IMG/VR virus record: IMGVR_UViG_3300042465_003102
Coordinates: 1-39,618 of that record
DNA from: a virus
DNA: 39,618 nt
Strand: one strand, 5' to 3'
The first letter of the stretch is position 1. Every line of letters begins with the position of its first letter. Positions 1 through 39,618 of this stretch are shown here, piece after piece. A model generated the notes under the pieces. The model searched no databases. It was not told where the DNA came from and saw nothing but the letters and a program-made list of their open reading frames with translations. The translations under genes and the position numbers were made by a program.

Positions 1-127
1 AATTCTTCCCTGTCAACCACAGGAGCAGAAACTATGAAACTACGTTTGTATCGAATCGTTGAAACCGCCACGCAGAGGGTTCGCCTGATCGAAGCCACCA
101 ACGCGGCCCAGGCTATGAAGCACGTTG
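1..127. repeat. Left copy of 127-bp terminal redundancy
   Basis: These 127 bases are identical to 39492-39618, so the contig closes on itself and the unique genome is 39491 bp. The repeat starts inside the early promoter -10 region and ends inside the first gene, which is not where a biological end repeat is expected. The length 127 equals a common maximum assembler k-mer, so it is best read as an assembly overlap of a circular or circularly permuted molecule. Confidence 0.95.
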
Positions 128-231
128 CCGAGACAACGCACACTTGCGCCGTCGTTACGAGTACGTCCGAAGCTGCGCGGCTTGTGTCGGGCGGAATCAA
201 GGTGGAGAGTGCGGGGAAGGACGACGCATAA
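34..231 (+). CDS. Small early protein, unknown function, 65 aa
   Basis: First gene of the rightward early operon, starting about 30 bp after the -10 box of the promoter at the window end. An AGGAGC ribosome site about 8 bases before the ATG supports this start. The protein is small, basic and alanine-rich with no recognised domain; its middle (ATNAAQAMKHVAET) looks helical. The TAA stop lies inside the first 7-base box (GCATAAC) of a 70-bp folded repeat. Its position right after the strong promoter suggests a host-takeover or regulatory role, which is inference only. Confidence 0.75.
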   Translation: MKLRLYRIVETATQRVRLIEATNAAQAMKHVAETTHTCAVVTSTSEAARLVSGGIKVESAGKDDA

Positions 232-295
232 CGACAGAGTGGAGGGGCGCGACGCAGCTTCATCGCGGCGCGTCCCTTCGCACGACGGGTTGTGC
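226..295. repeat. attC-like 70-bp folded element, copy B1
   Basis: Starts GCATAAC and ends GTTGTGC, which pair as 7-bp end boxes with one G-T wobble. Inside are an unpaired spacer (6 nt left, 5 nt right), a 3-bp GTG/CAC stem, one bulged base on the right side, then a GC-rich stem. It is nearly identical to the copy at 1177-1246. Spacer lengths and bulge position match integron attC sites read on the minus strand. The end box GTTGTGC deviates at one base from the attC consensus GTTRRRY. Confidence 0.6.
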
Positions 296-320
296 GGCGC
301 GGTTGATACGGAGTGAAGAC

Positions 321-785
321 ATGAGCCTGTTTTGTGATTCTGGATATGACCATGACGGCGCGGACTGGTGGTGGTATCAGCCAGCCGACGAGGCACCGCT
401 GGCGACAAAGCGCAGCCGGAAATGCTGTTCGTGTGGCGAGAAAGTCGGCGTTGGCGACACGGCGCGGAAGGTGCAGCGTTTCCGGCCTACCTCGGAGCGG
501 TGCAACTACATCGAGGAATCGATCTACGGCGACGAAGTACCGCTGGCCGACTGGTATCTGTGCGAGACGTGCGGCGATCTGGCGGACTCGCTTTCGGAGC
601 TTGGCTTTTGCTACCACCTCGGCGACGGCGAGAGCCTGAAGCAACAAATAGCCGACTACCGGCGCGACGAGGGGACGGCTTTGACGCACAACGTGAGAAG
701 TCAGGCGACTGACGCGGCCTTATCGCGGCAGGTCGCCTGCACTGACGGGTTGTGCCACGGCGCATCTTCGGAGAAAGAACAATGA
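321..785 (+). CDS. Zinc-finger-like phage protein, unknown function, 154 aa
   Basis: The chosen ATG follows the first 70-bp element; an in-frame start further upstream would read through that element. Residues about 32-37 carry CCSCGE and about 80-84 CETCG, so two CxxC pairs could bind zinc. The stretch between them (GDEVPLADWYLCETCG) resembles a hypothetical protein family common in phages of Burkholderia and relatives. The last roughly 33 residues are encoded by the 70-bp repeat at 686-755, so the tail may be an acquired extension. The stop overlaps the next start (ATGA). Function unknown. Confidence 0.8.
   Translation: MSLFCDSGYDHDGADWWWYQPADEAPLATKRSRKCCSCGEKVGVGDTARKVQRFRPTSERCNYIEESIYGDEVPLADWYLCETCGDLADSLSELGFCYHLGDGESLKQQIADYRRDEGTALTHNVRSQATDAALSRQVACTDGLCHGASSEKEQ
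441..464 (+). repeat. 24-bp in-frame repeat A, copy 1 (diverged)
   Basis: Encodes KVGVGDTA next to the CxxC motif of the zinc-finger-like protein. It differs from the other copies by one base in the AAAGTCGGCGCTGGC core. Here the peptide sits in a natural domain context, so this copy may be the source of the others. Confidence 0.5.
686..755. repeat. attC-like 70-bp folded element, copy B2
   Basis: Bounded by GCACAAC and GTTGTGC, a perfect 7-bp inverted pair. It has the same architecture as B1 and B3: 6/5-nt spacers, a 3-bp AGT/ACT stem, one bulged base on the right, then a long stem (CAGGCGAC pairing with GTCGCCTG). The stem sequence differs from B1 and B3 while pairing is kept, so structure rather than sequence appears conserved. 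It encodes the C-terminus of the preceding gene. Confidence 0.6.
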
Positions 786-1258
786 GCTTCGACCACGAAC
801 CACACGAACCGCAACCAGACTGCGACTGCCATGCCTGCGCGATATGGGAGCGCGACAAACTGCGCGAGATCGTTGGCGCACTGCGCTGGCCAATCCACGC
901 CGACGACAGGAAGGCGGCGCAAGCAACGGGAAAACACCCTGCGCCGTGCGCTCGCTTTTGCGAGGCCAATGCGTTCGAGATCGGAGAACGGATGCTGCGT
1001 GCCCAGATACGCGAGGAACGGCGACTGCTCACGGAATTCACCACGACTGTCGAGCGGTGCTACCGAATGCTGCTATCGGAGCCGGATACGAAAGGCGCAC
1101 TGTTCAAGGCTGAAAACATCCTGCGGGAAGCGCTGGCTGATCAGAAAGTCGGCGCTGGCACGACGGCGACCGAGGGGCACAACGACAGAGTGGAGGGGCG
1201 CGACGCGGCCTCATCGCGGCGCGTCCCTTCGCACGACGGGTTGTGCGGCAAACGGTGA
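782..1258 (+). CDS. Early protein with His/Cys-rich N-terminus, unknown function, 158 aa
   Basis: Starts at an ATG overlapping the previous stop (ATGA), indicating translational coupling. The N-terminus is rich in His and Cys (HEPHEPQPDCDCHAC, residues 5-19), a possible metal site, followed by a long charged helical region. The tail is composite: KVGAGTTA comes from repeat A at 1145-1168, and the last roughly 27 residues are encoded by the 70-bp element at 1177-1246. No known domain is recognised. Without the repeats the protein would be near 120 aa. Confidence 0.75.
   Translation: MSFDHEPHEPQPDCDCHACAIWERDKLREIVGALRWPIHADDRKAAQATGKHPAPCARFCEANAFEIGERMLRAQIREERRLLTEFTTTVERCYRMLLSEPDTKGALFKAENILREALADQKVGAGTTATEGHNDRVEGRDAASSRRVPSHDGLCGKR
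1145..1168 (+). repeat. 24-bp in-frame repeat A, copy 2
   Basis: Core AAAGTCGGCGCTGGC is identical to copies 3 and 4, with a local rearrangement in the second half, so it encodes KVGAGTTA. It lies just before the 70-bp element B3. Confidence 0.6.
1177..1246. repeat. attC-like 70-bp folded element, copy B3
   Basis: Bounded by GCACAAC and GTTGTGC. Apart from a few bases it equals copy B1 about 0.95 kb upstream. On the minus strand it reads: 7-bp box, 5-nt spacer CCGTC, GTG, bulged C, GAAGGG stem, loop, returning stem, CAC, 6-nt spacer, 7-bp box. That is the spacing and bulge position of classical attC sites such as aadA1 and the Vibrio VCR. Confidence 0.6.
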
Positions 1259-1272
1259 TGACGGGGAAGAAC

Positions 1273-1518
1273 ATGAACTTTGACACATGGATGAGAGCAC
1301 GAAACCCAAAGTACCACCCGACCGACGACACGGTAGCACTGAGAGAACTGCGCGAATGCTGGAGGACAGCGGAATGGCACAGCGAGCGCGCGGAGGATCG
1401 GGAGTTGATGATCGAGCTAATGCGTGACAAATGCAGAAAAGTCGGCGCTGGCGACACGGCGCTCGACATTCACGCGGACTTGACGCTGCACGCCCTTCGT
1501 CGGGAAGTAGCGAAGTGA
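1273..1518 (+). CDS. Small early protein, unknown function, 81 aa
   Basis: The ATG is preceded by GGGGAA about 5 bases upstream; a longer start would run back into element B3. The sequence is charged and probably helical (WMRARNPKYHP near the start, then a Glu/Arg-rich stretch). It ends with KVGAGDTA from repeat A followed by about 20 residues. The stop overlaps the GTG start of the next gene. No family recognised. It is the last of the single-gene units associated with the 70-bp elements. Confidence 0.75.
   Translation: MNFDTWMRARNPKYHPTDDTVALRELRECWRTAEWHSERAEDRELMIELMRDKCRKVGAGDTALDIHADLTLHALRREVAK
1438..1461 (+). repeat. 24-bp in-frame repeat A, copy 3
   Basis: Encodes KVGAGDTA near the C-terminus of the small protein that ends at 1518. 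The core matches copies 2 and 4, and the reading frame is the same in all copies. Confidence 0.6.
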
Positions 1519-2264
1519 ACAGAATAGTTTGCCAATTTTCGTGCGGCGCGGCCTCGGCGGTGGCGACGAAACTTGCGCTCACCCAGTACGGCGACCGCTG
1601 CGAGATTATCAACGCCTACCTGAAGAACGAGCACCCAGACAACCGGCGCTTTCTCGCCGACTGCGAGCAGTGGTTTGGGCTCCCGGTGACAGTGTTGCGC
1701 GACGAGAAATACGGCGCCGACATTGTGCAGGTGTTCCGGCGCAAGCAGTACATGAAGGGCATGAGCGGCGCCCCGTGCTCCCGCGAGTTGAAGCGGAAGC
1801 TGCTTGATGCTTGGAAGCAACCCGGAGACGTGATGGTTTTTGGCTACACCGTCGAGGAAGCCGACCGATTGGAGGACTTCCGCGAGCGCAACCCTGACCG
1901 GACTGTGTTGGCCCCGCTGATCGACGCCGGCCTCGACAAAGAGGACTGCAAGGCGATGGTGCAGCGCGCTGGGATTGAGCTGCCGCTGATGTACCGCCTT
2001 GGCTACGACAACGCGAACTGCATCGGCTGCGTAAAGGGTGGCGAGGGCTATTGGCGGGCGATCCGAGAGGACTTCCCGGACAAGTTCGAGGAACTGGCGG
2101 CGGTGCAAGACGAGATTGGGGAGGGCGCCTATCTGTTCCGCAACCGGCAGACCGGCGAGCGGTACAGCTTGCGCCAGATTCCACCCGGCCCAGCCCGCCG
2201 AAACGAGGCGCTGCCGTCGTGCTCGTTCTTTTGCGAAATAGCCGAAATGGAGTACACGGCATGA
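1515..2264 (+). CDS. PAPS-reductase-like PP-loop ATPase family protein, 249 aa
   Basis: The GTG start overlaps the previous stop (GTGA). Residues 7-15 (QFSCGAASA) form a PP-loop nucleotide-binding signature in the place where the PAPS reductase/adenine nucleotide alpha-hydrolase family has SGGKDS. Cysteines at 88, 169 and 172 (NCIGC) and a terminal CSFFC could hold a metal or Fe-S centre, as in several phage and DndC-like members. The family binds ATP or PAPS; in phages the true reaction is usually unknown, with nucleotide or DNA modification the usual suggestion. It lies in the early operon near a methyltransferase gene. Confidence 0.85.
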   Translation: MNRIVCQFSCGAASAVATKLALTQYGDRCEIINAYLKNEHPDNRRFLADCEQWFGLPVTVLRDEKYGADIVQVFRRKQYMKGMSGAPCSRELKRKLLDAWKQPGDVMVFGYTVEEADRLEDFRERNPDRTVLAPLIDAGLDKEDCKAMVQRAGIELPLMYRLGYDNANCIGCVKGGEGYWRAIREDFPDKFEELAAVQDEIGEGAYLFRNRQTGERYSLRQIPPGPARRNEALPSCSFFCEIAEMEYTA

Positions 2265-2266
2265 TT

Positions 2267-2300
2267 TTGACGCACAACGTGTGATATGGGTGAACCCATA
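2267..2300. other. Partial attC-like box plus TATGGGT palindrome
   Basis: TTGACGCACAACGTG at 2267-2281 is identical to the left end of element B2 (682-696), but no partner GTTGTGC follows, so it looks like a remnant. Directly after it, TATGGGT-GA-ACCCATA (2285-2300) is a perfect inverted repeat. A TATGGGT half also overlaps the early promoter at 39483-39489, so this may be an operator or a small hairpin. Confidence 0.4.
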
Positions 2301-2337
2301 AAACCGCTTAACATTTTTACGCAAAGGAATCATTACC

Positions 2338-2535
2338 ATGCCTCAAGTTAAAGCCGATTTACGCATCACCATCGAAGCCAACGGAAAGTCGTTCACGCTG
2401 AACTGCCTGAAGCTACCTGATCGCAGTTTTATCATCAAGCGCGGTCGCAAGGTATCGGACAAAATGCCACGCGCAACCATTTCCGAAATCTTCGACACAT
2501 CGCGCAAATGGGCTGTAAATAATTGCGCGTTGTAA
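2338..2535 (+). CDS. Small early protein, unknown function, 65 aa
   Basis: AAAGGAA lies about 9 bases before the ATG. The protein is basic and compact (KADLRITIEANGKSF, then KLPDRSFIIKRGRK), with alternating beta-like residues and a helical end. It resembles short hypothetical proteins seen in early regions of proteobacterial phages. The basic centre may contact nucleic acid, but no DNA-binding fold is identified. Confidence 0.8.
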   Translation: MPQVKADLRITIEANGKSFTLNCLKLPDRSFIIKRGRKVSDKMPRATISEIFDTSRKWAVNNCAL

Positions 2536-2583
2536 GTTTCGTGTAAGTTTCGAGTGGAAAATGCAAGCCAAGGAGGTAGCACA

Positions 2584-2769
2584 ATGAAACCTGTACCGCA
2601 GTACGAAGCAACAGTAGAGCAGCAGCATCCGGCAGTTGATGGCGTAGCAAATCTTTCCGTAGTAGGGCATGTGGCCGGCACATACGAATCGTGCTGGCAG
2701 CAGGCTAAAGAGATCACGAAATTTCCTGTGATCCAGTTTCGGGAGTTGAATCATGGGCAGAAGTGCTGA
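2584..2769 (+). CDS. Small early protein, unknown function, 61 aa
   Basis: A near-perfect ribosome site (AAGGAGGT) sits about 6 bases before this ATG, so it is preferred over an in-frame start 30 bases upstream. The sequence has no cysteine pairs or membrane segment. The end overlaps the next gene by 17 bases. No family recognised. Confidence 0.75.
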   Translation: MKPVPQYEATVEQQHPAVDGVANLSVVGHVAGTYESCWQQAKEITKFPVIQFRELNHGQKC

Positions 2770-2980
2770 CATGTGGCAAGAGCAGCAGGAACGCGAGGCC
2801 GGCGACGAGCAGCAATACGATCTGTGCGAGATGCTGTTCGAGATGGGCGTGTATATGCAGGAGGTGCAACGCGCTGAGATGGAGCGCGACATGGAGCCGC
2901 ATAAGCGCGGTGACTATACCGAGCGGCTGTACGAGATTGCCGACGTGCAACGCAAGGCTCGCCGGGAGAATGGAGCATGA
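2753..2980 (+). CDS. Acidic helical small protein, unknown function, 75 aa
   Basis: Rich in Glu, Gln and Met with a predicted helical, possibly coiled-coil character throughout (QEQQEREAGDEQQ near the start). It overlaps the preceding gene by 17 bases and the next by 4 (ATGA), so it is part of a tightly coupled string. No domain recognised. Confidence 0.75.
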   Translation: MGRSADMWQEQQEREAGDEQQYDLCEMLFEMGVYMQEVQRAEMERDMEPHKRGDYTERLYEIADVQRKARRENGA

Positions 2981-6032: not shown

Positions 6033-6364
6033 CACCCACCTTCCGCAAATGGCACGACGCCGACGATGCCGGTACTCCGCTGCTGCTCACGAAGCAGTTG
6101 GACGATCTGACCGGCAGCAAGGAACATTCAGTCGACGTCCGAGGGCCGAAGCAGCACCACACGCGGTTTGTGTGCGAAGTGCTGCTGTACCGCGACGAGG
6201 GGCATATCGACGCTTGGGCGGATACGACAACGGGATCGCTGTATATCGACGGGCGGTGCTTGTCTGGGCCATTGGAGTTCGTTGGCAAGCCGAAGCCTAC
6301 GGGACGCGCTGTGCCGAACTGGAGAAAGCGGCAGGTTGAGGGGGATTTGAGGACGAGGGTGTGA
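6029..6364 (+). CDS. Early protein, unknown function, 111 aa
   Basis: Overlaps both neighbours (ATGA at its start, TGATG at its end). Mixed alpha/beta composition with a central HTRFVCEVLLYRDEG segment and a basic C-terminus (NWRKRQVEGDLRTRV). No domain recognised. Its immediate partner downstream is the methyltransferase. Confidence 0.75.
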   Translation: MTPTFRKWHDADDAGTPLLLTKQLDDLTGSKEHSVDVRGPKQHHTRFVCEVLLYRDEGHIDAWADTTTGSLYIDGRCLSGPLEFVGKPKPTGRAVPNWRKRQVEGDLRTRV

Positions 6365-7056
6365 TGATGGCTGAGAAAGTGACAATCGGGAATTGCGAAC
6401 TGTGGCACGGGGACTGCCGCGAAGTGCTGCCGCTGCTGCCCGCCGTGGATTTGATGTTGACCGACCCGCCGTATGGGATTGGGCGCGACGGAAAGCCGCC
6501 CAGCACAAGCAGCCACGGAGGGCACAAGGGCTACGAATTCATGGGGTGGGACACTGACGCGCCGCCGGCTTGGCTGTTTGGCCTGATGCACGAAAAGGCC
6601 AAGCACCTGATTATCTGGGGCGCGAACTACTACCCGCAAAACCTGCGCCCTTCGATGGGGTGGCTTGTGTGGGACAAGGGGCAACGGATTAGCCAAAGCG
6701 ATTGCGAACTGGCCTACACGACGCTGGACAAGGCGCTGCGCTCCATGACCCTGAACCGGGCAGCGATTGCGCAAGACGGCGCGGTGCACCCGACACAAAA
6801 GCCGGTGCAGGTAATGGAATGGTGTCTGAGCTTGCACCCAAAGGCGCGGACGGTTTGCGATCCATTCATGGGCAGCGGAACGACCGGCGTTGCCTGCGCC
6901 CGAATGGGTTTGCAGTTCGTCGGAATCGAGCGCGAGCGTAAATACTTTGACATAGCCTGCCGCCGAATAGAGCAAGCCTACGCACAGCCTCGGCTGTTCG
7001 AGGATGCGAAAGTCGGCGCTGGCGATACGGCGGTGCAGGAGGATTGGACGAAATGA
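6364..7056 (+). CDS. DNA methyltransferase (adenine-N6 or cytosine-N4), 230 aa
   Basis: Shows the catalytic DPPYG (34-38) near the N-terminus and the SAM-binding DPFMGSGTT (166-174) near the C-terminus, with HPTQKP (142-147) between. This motif order fits the beta class of amino-methyltransferases. The enzyme would transfer a methyl group from SAM to an exocyclic amine in DNA, perhaps to evade host restriction. No paired restriction gene is visible. GTG, ATG and ATG stand in a row at 6361-6369; the middle one is chosen for its TGATG overlap. The C-terminus carries KVGAGDTA (216-223) from repeat A. Confidence 0.9.
   Translation: MMAEKVTIGNCELWHGDCREVLPLLPAVDLMLTDPPYGIGRDGKPPSTSSHGGHKGYEFMGWDTDAPPAWLFGLMHEKAKHLIIWGANYYPQNLRPSMGWLVWDKGQRISQSDCELAYTTLDKALRSMTLNRAAIAQDGAVHPTQKPVQVMEWCLSLHPKARTVCDPFMGSGTTGVACARMGLQFVGIERERKYFDIACRRIEQAYAQPRLFEDAKVGAGDTAVQEDWTK
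7009..7032 (+). repeat. 24-bp in-frame repeat A, copy 4
   Basis: Encodes KVGAGDTA at the very end of the methyltransferase, about 5.5 kb from the other copies. The core matches copies 2 and 3, in the same reading frame, which argues for selection on the peptide or for recent spread of a coding segment. Confidence 0.6.
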
Positions 7057-26379: not shown

Positions 26380-27029
26380 GCACTCCCATTCCAGCGTTTA
26401 AGCGTCTTTGTTTGCCATGATACGCCACCCCAATGCTTTAATGTTTTAATCTGCCAATCCGCACCATCCCAATACTTTATAGATAAACCTGTTCCTATTC
26501 TTGCTACGTTTCCTGCTATCACTGATCCACTTCCAACCAGAACACCTGTTGCTGCCATCGTTCTGAATCGAGAGGCCGAGCCTACTACTACTGCTCCAGG
26601 CCCGACCAGCGCCCCACTTGCAGCCCGCGTTGTCCCGCTGTCTGCTGCCCCAACAACTATCGAGCCTTGCCCTACAAGTACCCCGCTTGTTGCGTGGGTG
26701 GCTACGCCTTCCTGCCTATCTGCTGCACCGACTACCGTAGAACCTTTACCTGCAAGAACCCCTGACGTAGCCATCACCCGCTTGCGGGAAGCGGAGCCTG
26801 CGATTACCGATCCTTGTCCGGTGAGTACGCCGGTCGATGGTCTTGTGGTCTTGCTTGACGCCGACCCGACTATTACCGAGCCTTGGCCTGTGAGTACCCC
26901 AGACGAGGCGCGAACCGTCTTGCTTGACGCACTGCCAACTATTGCGGAACCCGGCCCTGTGAGTGCGCCGGTTGTTGCGTGTGTTACTGGCCCTGCTGCA
27001 CCTTGACCGAGTAGCAGTGGAAGTAACAT
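26370..27029 (-). CDS. Tandem-repeat virion protein with seven 23-residue units, 219 aa
   Basis: Residues about 16-178 comprise seven near-identical units of about 23 residues with core SGVLTGQGSVIVGSAS. The Gly and Val spacing suggests a beta-solenoid. The C-terminus holds three Trp-rich segments of the type YWDGADWQIKTLKHW, a frequent end of phage fibre proteins. The N-terminus is short and hydrophobic (LLPLLLGQGAAG). Probably an elongated fibre or surface protein whose length can change by repeat number. Confidence 0.7.
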   Translation of the reverse strand: MLLPLLLGQGAAGPVTHATTGALTGPGSAIVGSASSKTVRASSGVLTGQGSVIVGSASSKTTRPSTGVLTGQGSVIAGSASRKRVMATSGVLAGKGSTVVGAADRQEGVATHATSGVLVGQGSIVVGAADSGTTRAASGALVGPGAVVVGSASRFRTMAATGVLVGSGSVIAGNVARIGTGLSIKYWDGADWQIKTLKHWGGVSWQTKTLKRWNGSAWV

Positions 27030-33520: not shown

Positions 33521-33702
33521 GCGTACATTGGTACATCTGATCCATTGCTCGACATGTTGCGGAAAATCAGTACATCGGTACAGAAAATCAGTACATGTAC
33601 CGATGTACCGATTGGACCCTTTTTCCCCAAAGTTTTTAAATGCGCGCACGCACCTGCGGACAGACTTTAGGGAAAACACCCCGAATCGGTACATCGGTAC
33701 AT
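33521..33702. repeat. Four tandem pairs of an 8-bp CGGTACAT unit (iteron-like)
   Basis: Pairs occur at 33521-33536, 33568-33583, 33595-33610 (inverted) and 33687-33702. The last reads CGGTACATCGGTACAT. In each pair the halves are spaced 8 bases. The inverted pair and the last pair extend to a perfect 19-bp inverted repeat (33595-33613 and 33684-33702). An AT-rich part (33617-33641) with T and A runs lies between them. Likely protein-binding sites at a replication origin or a regulatory hub. Confidence 0.65.
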
Positions 33703-39466: not shown

Positions 39467-39494
39467 TTGACATGGCGAATTCTATGGGTACAAT
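39467..39494 (+). promoter_or_regulatory. Rightward early promoter
   Basis: TTGACA (39467-39472), 16-base spacer, TACAAT (39489-39494). It crosses the window junction and drives the first early gene at 34 (equivalent to 39525). TATGGGT at 39483-39489 overlaps its -10 region and is one half of the palindrome at 2285-2300, a possible operator half-site. Divergent from the repressor gene. Confidence 0.85.
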
Positions 39495-39618
39495 TCTTCC
39501 CTGTCAACCACAGGAGCAGAAACTATGAAACTACGTTTGTATCGAATCGTTGAAACCGCCACGCAGAGGGTTCGCCTGATCGAAGCCACCAACGCGGCCC
39601 AGGCTATGAAGCACGTTG
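39492..39618. repeat. Right copy of 127-bp terminal redundancy
   Basis: Identical to 1-127, including the start of the first early gene. Joining the two ends gives a 39491-bp circle. Confidence 0.95.

Follow-up and report, generated by a model that had tools for sequence, protein, structure and literature searches.

The question raised by this locus is whether three similar elements, spaced among the first small genes of a phage genome, are integron recombination sites, and what would then move and express the genes between them. The window, i.e. the whole stretch of 39,618 bases analysed, begins and ends with the same 127 bp (1-127 = 39492-39618, a direct repeat) and is therefore probably a complete circular assembly. 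It encodes primase, Erf-like, Gam-like, terminase, portal and head proteins and belongs to a podovirus-like phage, in whose early region the elements are located. Two further repeats were seen elsewhere in the window: a 50-nt family with 69-nt spacing inside a coding region (26581-26984), and a 39-nt inverted repeat (82% complementary) adjoining the packaging genes at about 33.6 kb (33595-33702).

Elements, boxes and cassettes in the window

Three 70-bp elements were found exactly where a preliminary description of this DNA had placed them (Table 1), each with the end boxes given there, GCAYAAC on the left and GTTGTGC on the right. Over 73 nt, elements 1 and 3 share 96% identity; the identity of element 2 to element 1 is 66%. 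Folding of element 2 was significant on both strands (z = -5.8 on the + strand, -3.9 on the - strand) and element 3 gave z = -3.0, while element 1 by itself reached -1.6, which is not significant. Since the folding energy was strong for element 2 only, the case for attC sites was not built on it. A leave-out profile containing no sites of the window phage or its sisters gave just these three matches in 39.6 kb, with E-values of 4.2e-16, 6.3e-14 and 3.6e-15 for sites 1, 2 and 3 and the next match at 0.47. The full profile gave 1.3e-16, 1.7e-14 and 8.3e-16, respectively, and had no match in 1.24 Mb of reversed decoy sequence. Judged by their sequences, the three elements are integron attC sites.

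Site 2 has spacers of 6 and 5 nt and one extrahelical base, a C on the + strand (fit 6,5,0,1); its stem sequence is different from that of the other sites, but the geometry is the same. The left box of site 1 is not complementary to its own right box, as should be the case for a recombined box, and the half site that ends the array is complementary to the right box of site 3. The chain of matching boxes is complete in the window, running from 295 to 686, from 755 to 1177, and from 1246 to the half site at 2272. The cassette boundaries in Table 1 were deduced from the break AA|C on the + strand, equivalent to G^TT on the - strand.

Table 1. Sites, cassettes and genes of the array in the window
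Feature	Position	Strand	Remarks
gene 1	34..231	+	65 aa; phage backbone gene ahead of array
attC site 1	226..295	- (attC top strand)	profile match; opens cassette C1
attC site 1 boxes	226-232; 289-295		R' GCATAAC, left end; R'' GTTGTGC
cassette C1	232..691	+	attC 1 + gene 2; end boxes match, GTTGTGC/GCACAAC
gene 2	321..785	+	cassette C1; small Cys-rich protein; ORF runs through attC 2
attC site 2	686..755	-	profile match and geometry; opens cassette C2
cassette C2	692..1182	+	attC 2 + gene 3
gene 3	782..1258	+	cassette C2; ORF runs through attC 3
attC site 3	1177..1246	-	profile match, 96% identical to site 1; opens cassette C3
cassette C3	1183..2277	+	attC 3 + gene 4 + PAPS-reductase-family gene
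gene 4	1273..1518	+	cassette C3
phosphoadenosine phosphosulfate reductase family gene	1515..2264	+	cassette C3; PHROG 424, E 6e-54
half site GCACAAC	2272..2278	-	R'-type box closing last cassette; array end

A CALIN is a cluster of two or more attC sites with no integrase close by, and the window, with three attC sites within 1.0 kb and no integrase, has this arrangement. It is not a complete integron, as no intI lies in cis in the window and the array end AACGTGTGATATGGG lacks the AACTnnAATT motif that adjoins intI in related phages (see below). Nor is it a canonical array, in which each gene lies upstream of its attC and in the direction of the attC top strand; the genes of the window array are reversed. 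That 226-2278 is a three-cassette CALIN, and its sites attC, is in our view very likely and the best explanation of the whole.

The elements had been assigned to the 3' ends of three small genes. This needs correcting for genes 2 and 3, whose ORFs run on through the elements, to 785 and 1258. The stop codon TAA of gene 1 overlaps the R' box of site 1. The hairpins read in this way encode C-terminal tails, e.g. HNDRVEGRDAASSRRVPSHDGLCG. Homologues of gene 2 were present on 15 contigs, some within arrays and some outside. A short coding repeat, AGAAAGTCGGCGCTGGCGACACGGCG (peptide KVGAGDTA), occurs at 1143-1179, 1436-1472 and 7007-7043 and also at 439-475. The genes concerned are small and unrelated, and the repeat lies close to their 3' ends; related contigs have it in over 30 contexts. 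An N6/N4 DNA methyltransferase gene of the window (6361-7056) lies outside the array, and in many relatives (L007, L032, L038, L039, L042 and others) this gene is a cassette gene following an attC.

Geometry and orientation of the site family

Pattern scans of IMG/VR recovered the same element on about 35 viral contigs, most of which hold several sites according to the profile search. The stems are very different and the skeleton is common: RYYYAACG, 5-6 nt, L box, stem, one extra base, L box, 5 nt, GTTRRRY. Among the contigs fetched, mostly unannotated metagenome assemblies, 68 viral ones carry the family. In cultured phages, the 'distant' DNA search returned no array, only single homologous genes.

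In 92 unique sites the AAC and GTT of the outer boxes RYYYAAC and GTTRRRY, which define attC ends, are present at 99-100%, and the four outer bases follow the consensus loosely. The departure of GTTGTGC from GTTRRRY at one base, first counted against attC identity, belongs to a wider spread of boxes in the family (GTTATGC, GTTAGAG, GTTGGGC and GTTCGGC); deviation from the strict consensus is still a point against the attC reading. An attC site also has two spacers of about 5 and 6 nt, L boxes, and an extrahelical base located three pairs into the L stem. RNAalifold found no structure in a MAFFT alignment of the sites, where the L arms do not line up, and an explicit fit of the attC geometry was used instead. 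It accommodated 67 of the 92 real sites (73%) compared with 9.6% of shuffled interiors; in these 67 the extrahelical base or bases lay on the right arm in 52, on the left arm in 2, and were missing in 13. Read on the gene strand, the phage sites mostly have spacers of 6/5 or 5/5, whereas class 1 attC sites read in the same way have 5/6 and carry the extrahelical base on their left arm. The geometry is thus that of class 1 attC in reverse orientation, in agreement with the minus-strand reading proposed earlier.

Integron integrases cut at the R' box, and the attC bottom strand is the strand that they recognise when it is folded. In most attC sites a G following AAC marks the R' box (PMC2727003). 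Of 206 phage sites, 202 have this G at the left box and one has it at the other box. Since the mark sits at the left, so does the R' box, and the strand that codes for the genes corresponds to the attC bottom strand; the + strand would accordingly be the folded substrate of IntI. A check with an attC model had been proposed for the window, and it was run in reverse: the profile made from phage sites only detected class 1 attC in three plasmids, in all cases on the predicted strand, opposite to the cassette genes, with the best match at the blaOXA-21 attC (E 2.3e-12). The attC of this clinical cassette (L051:7988-8053) has the tip and skeleton of the phage family, hinting, as far as sequence likeness goes, at a cassette pool common to phages and clinical cassettes.

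The direction of the cassette genes was scored by a codon score trained on few genes, which assigned them to the attC bottom strand in 144 intervals, against 19 with the genes on the other strand (1 to 6 in the class 1 control). Five of the 19 exceptions came from a single contig with a normally oriented integron (L106). In an independent count, the best coding ORF just upstream of intI was on the same strand as intI in 23 members of the viral clade described below and on the opposite strand in one. For bacterial integrons together with class 1, the corresponding numbers were 3 and 14 (P 3e-7). Genes running opposite to the attC orientation had been listed as counter-evidence; the reversed direction is the rule in the phage family. 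A search of a literature collection with few subscription journals and no preprints turned up no report of reversed phage cassettes. Within the literature covered, the reversed direction and the phage lineage of IntI, attI and attC are new, and CALINs in phages as such are already known (Qi et al. 2023).

Gain and loss of cassette units

If the DNA between two cuts was formerly circular, matching box halves are required at both of its ends. In 86 of 132 neighbouring pairs, the left box of a site was the reverse complement of the right box of the site before it, where 9.4 pairs were expected and 22 was the maximum in 10,000 permutations; left and right boxes of the same site matched in just 9 of 206. 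Box matching alone is silent on which gene goes with which attC, and this was decided by comparison across contigs. In 29 pairs the attC and the downstream flank were common and the upstream flank differed, and in 24 pairs the upstream flank was common and the attC differed. In total, 53 pairs spoke for the attC travelling with the downstream gene, 8 were intermediate and 15 contrary, the latter partly because several cassettes have short leader sequences in common. The notion that each element is a property of the upstream gene was rejected by this comparison, which assigns it to the gene downstream. Each cassette consists of an attC followed by its gene or genes.

Gain and loss of such units was seen between relatives. 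Two contigs, L006 and L007, come from sister phages that share the backbone (gene 1, primase), L006 being 94% identical to window positions 1049-2980. Where the window has its three sites, two and nine are present in L006 and L007. All three phages are closely similar over the end of gene 1 up to the box, and divergence starts at YAAC. Cassette C3 is found in L006 behind a different neighbour and is absent from this place in L007. In a second pair, G013 and G005, the DNA around the array is 98-99% identical and differs by exactly one cassette cut at AAC, which lies between ...CCCTCCAAC and ...GCGCATAACGACAG in one and is missing from the other. A lack of whole-unit gain and loss between relatives had been named beforehand as the result that would count against an array; both comparisons gave the opposite outcome, whole units gained or lost with breaks in the R' box, as is characteristic of gene cassettes.

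A different explanation of the shuffling is that the hairpins are attC-derived or other linkers no longer recombined site-specifically, and that homologous recombination between near-identical repeats, e.g. by the Erf annealing protein of the phage itself, exchanges the modules between them, for which the stem-loop linkers of T4-type phages offer a likeness. The Erf-like gene and the absence of IntI in the window, and the 96% identity of sites 1 and 3, would fit with this. However, the 24 pairs with a common upstream gene have hairpins less than 78% alike; exchange that takes place while the hairpins differ is independent of hairpin similarity. Moreover, the breaks fall at AAC, matching boxes at both ends of a unit are not predicted by homologous recombination, and complete integrons of the same attC family exist in relatives. 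We consider this explanation unlikely and return to cassettes recombined at their boxes.

Integrases of related phages and the proposed exchange system

A search for a tyrosine recombinase (PF00589) gave no match in the window. The earlier statement that no integrase is present is thus correct for the window and does not extend to the related phages, which carry IntI. In G013, G005, G003 and G031, TIGR02249 matched at 479 and 450 bits (cut-off 265), and intI lies in cis in these four and in G041. The contigs with IntI are phage contigs of different types, with siphovirus head and tail genes in G013, a myovirus sheath and terminase in G041, and a podovirus connector and terminase in G031. G013-type contigs had been considered as plasmids because of a ParB, an assignment that was dropped once head and tail genes were found. 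G013 (L176:3257-4255) also encodes a reverse transcriptase (phrog_1423), possibly that of a diversity-generating retroelement.

In a protein scan, 61 viral loci with IntI were obtained. In the loci in which sites were detected, the array is located 5' of intI, and its attC sites are on the canonical strand relative to intI. An attI-like motif, AACTnnAATT (often AACTTAAATTC...CGACA), was located 39-101 nt upstream of intI in 16 of the 31 loci examined, the others having an undetected attC in between or an end that was not traced. The motif joins the end of the last cassette and is constant while the cassette end varies, as in G013 and G005. In a quick tree, 43 viral IntIs formed a clade (SH-aLRT 97) together with one sequence from a bacterial genome (L141), whose neighbours are same-strand genes and phage-type genes. 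A single query served to collect the viral IntIs by similarity, a sampling biased toward it, and the bacterial side covered only about 370 genomes, so that the clade may look purer than it is. In a first tree class 1 IntI was placed beside the viral clade; it moved outside once bacterial rows had been added and long branches taken out, and given this shift between trees we make no claim on the origin of class 1.

The integrases of the relatives, together with the geometry, the profile and the gain and loss at AAC, support a phage cassette array, one of the two possibilities raised at the outset; the other, a new structured mobile repeat, is not needed given the attC evidence. Taken together, the data suggest that phages run their own gene-swapping platform. 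Related phages have the full platform, namely IntI, an attI-like site a short way upstream of intI, and the array, with one reading direction for all three. Through recombination at the left R' box (AA|C on +, G^TT on -), presumably catalysed by IntI, whole units of an attC and its downstream gene would be joined or removed, and new cassettes would enter at attI beside intI, where the array is most distant from the phage promoter. Expression may depend on read-through from phage promoters and not on an integron Pc promoter. With the genes reversed, transcription would come from the phage side and pass through the array toward intI, leaving the newest cassette farthest from the promoter. Phages that lack IntI would owe their arrays to an enzyme acting in trans or to inheritance. 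For the window array this enzyme could come from the host, from a prophage or from a co-infecting phage; otherwise the array may now be fixed.

We think it probable that tailed phages of several morphotypes own an integron lineage, comprising an IntI clade, attI and an attC family, with reversed cassettes, in which phage promoters drive the arrays and intI is the last gene of a phage operon. Early genes (methyltransferases and others) would be traded through it, also by phages lacking IntI such as the window phage, via a pool that overlaps that of clinical class 1 cassettes (e.g. blaOXA). Phage genomes are mosaics, and precise swaps of small early genes are mostly ascribed to homologous or illegitimate recombination. 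If our reading is true, a site-specific cassette system run by phages offers a mechanism, open to direct test, by which early genes, probably anti-defence genes among them, are replaced rapidly. Integron cassettes and integrases would then have both a reservoir and a vehicle in phages, and the direction of cassettes would be set by selection for expression and not by the recombination machinery.

Alternatively, a stretch of a bacterial chromosomal integron could have been captured once by a transduction-like accident, its cassettes being bacterial and outside phage biology; precedents, as in Vibrio phages, were described by Qi et al. 2023 (PMC9892861). Nevertheless, in 84,980 species genomes of bacteria and archaea the pattern scan found ten matches, none with the element skeleton, as opposed to 68 viral contigs with the family; the scan used one tip sequence, so that bacteria with other tips could escape it. 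The ten matches were attributed to chance, and a bacterial host array as the source was rejected. The gene direction is also opposite to that in bacterial integrons, and cassettes turn over at one place among sister phages, making a one-off capture highly improbable. Plain transcription terminators, or RNA hairpins repeated at the ends of genes, to which the G+C-rich hairpins at gene boundaries bear some likeness, have next to no chance of being the answer and were rejected, as no T-run follows the hairpins, two ORFs run through them, the structure is interrupted at the fixed attC places, and box matching together with gain and loss shows that the ends recombine.

The proposed integron lineage of phages can be set beside several known systems. 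Qi et al. 2023 (PMC9892861) reported CALINs in the virulent Tetrasphaera phage TJE1, Polaribacter phage P12002L and Pseudoalteromonas phage PH101, and 5 of 6 phage attC sites tested there were recombined by IntI1. The window resembles these in having an attC array without integrase in a lytic-type phage, and some of theirs have methyltransferase cassettes. The only attC that we located in TJE1 (1016-1075) is in canonical orientation after its gene, with an extrahelical C on the left arm, whereas the window sites are reversed and are members of a large phage attC family, and the relatives of the window, unlike those CALINs, carry IntI and an attI-like site. With class 1 and sedentary chromosomal integrons the phage system shares the IntI family (TIGR02249), the folding features of attC, the box vocabulary, and the position and direction of attC relative to intI; it differs in that the phage cassette genes point toward intI and the attI sequence is different. 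Treponema integrons (PMC3607928) have intI codirectional with the cassette genes and are said to transcribe intI toward attI, i.e. flipped. The phage intI is likewise transcribed in the direction of the cassette genes, but it keeps its canonical place relative to attC, and it is the cassette genes that are flipped. An IntI on a phage record is also known from Vibrio p16 and p42, a P1 isolate and Shewanella M16-3. These temperate-phage IntIs are 44-58% identical to the phage IntI query, and their complete integrons were described as captured pieces of host or clinical integrons.

Two further integrase loci were observed. Virus Rctr41k (KX853513), from a methane-oxidising enrichment, has an integron-integrase-like gene annotated as xerD (L137:4680-5678) in the same direction as its neighbours, and attC sites of the phage family were not detected in this virus. 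The IntI of G052 (L094) falls in a bacterial clade, on a contig with a terminase match and same-strand genes, and is perhaps a second, independent capture with reversed cassettes.
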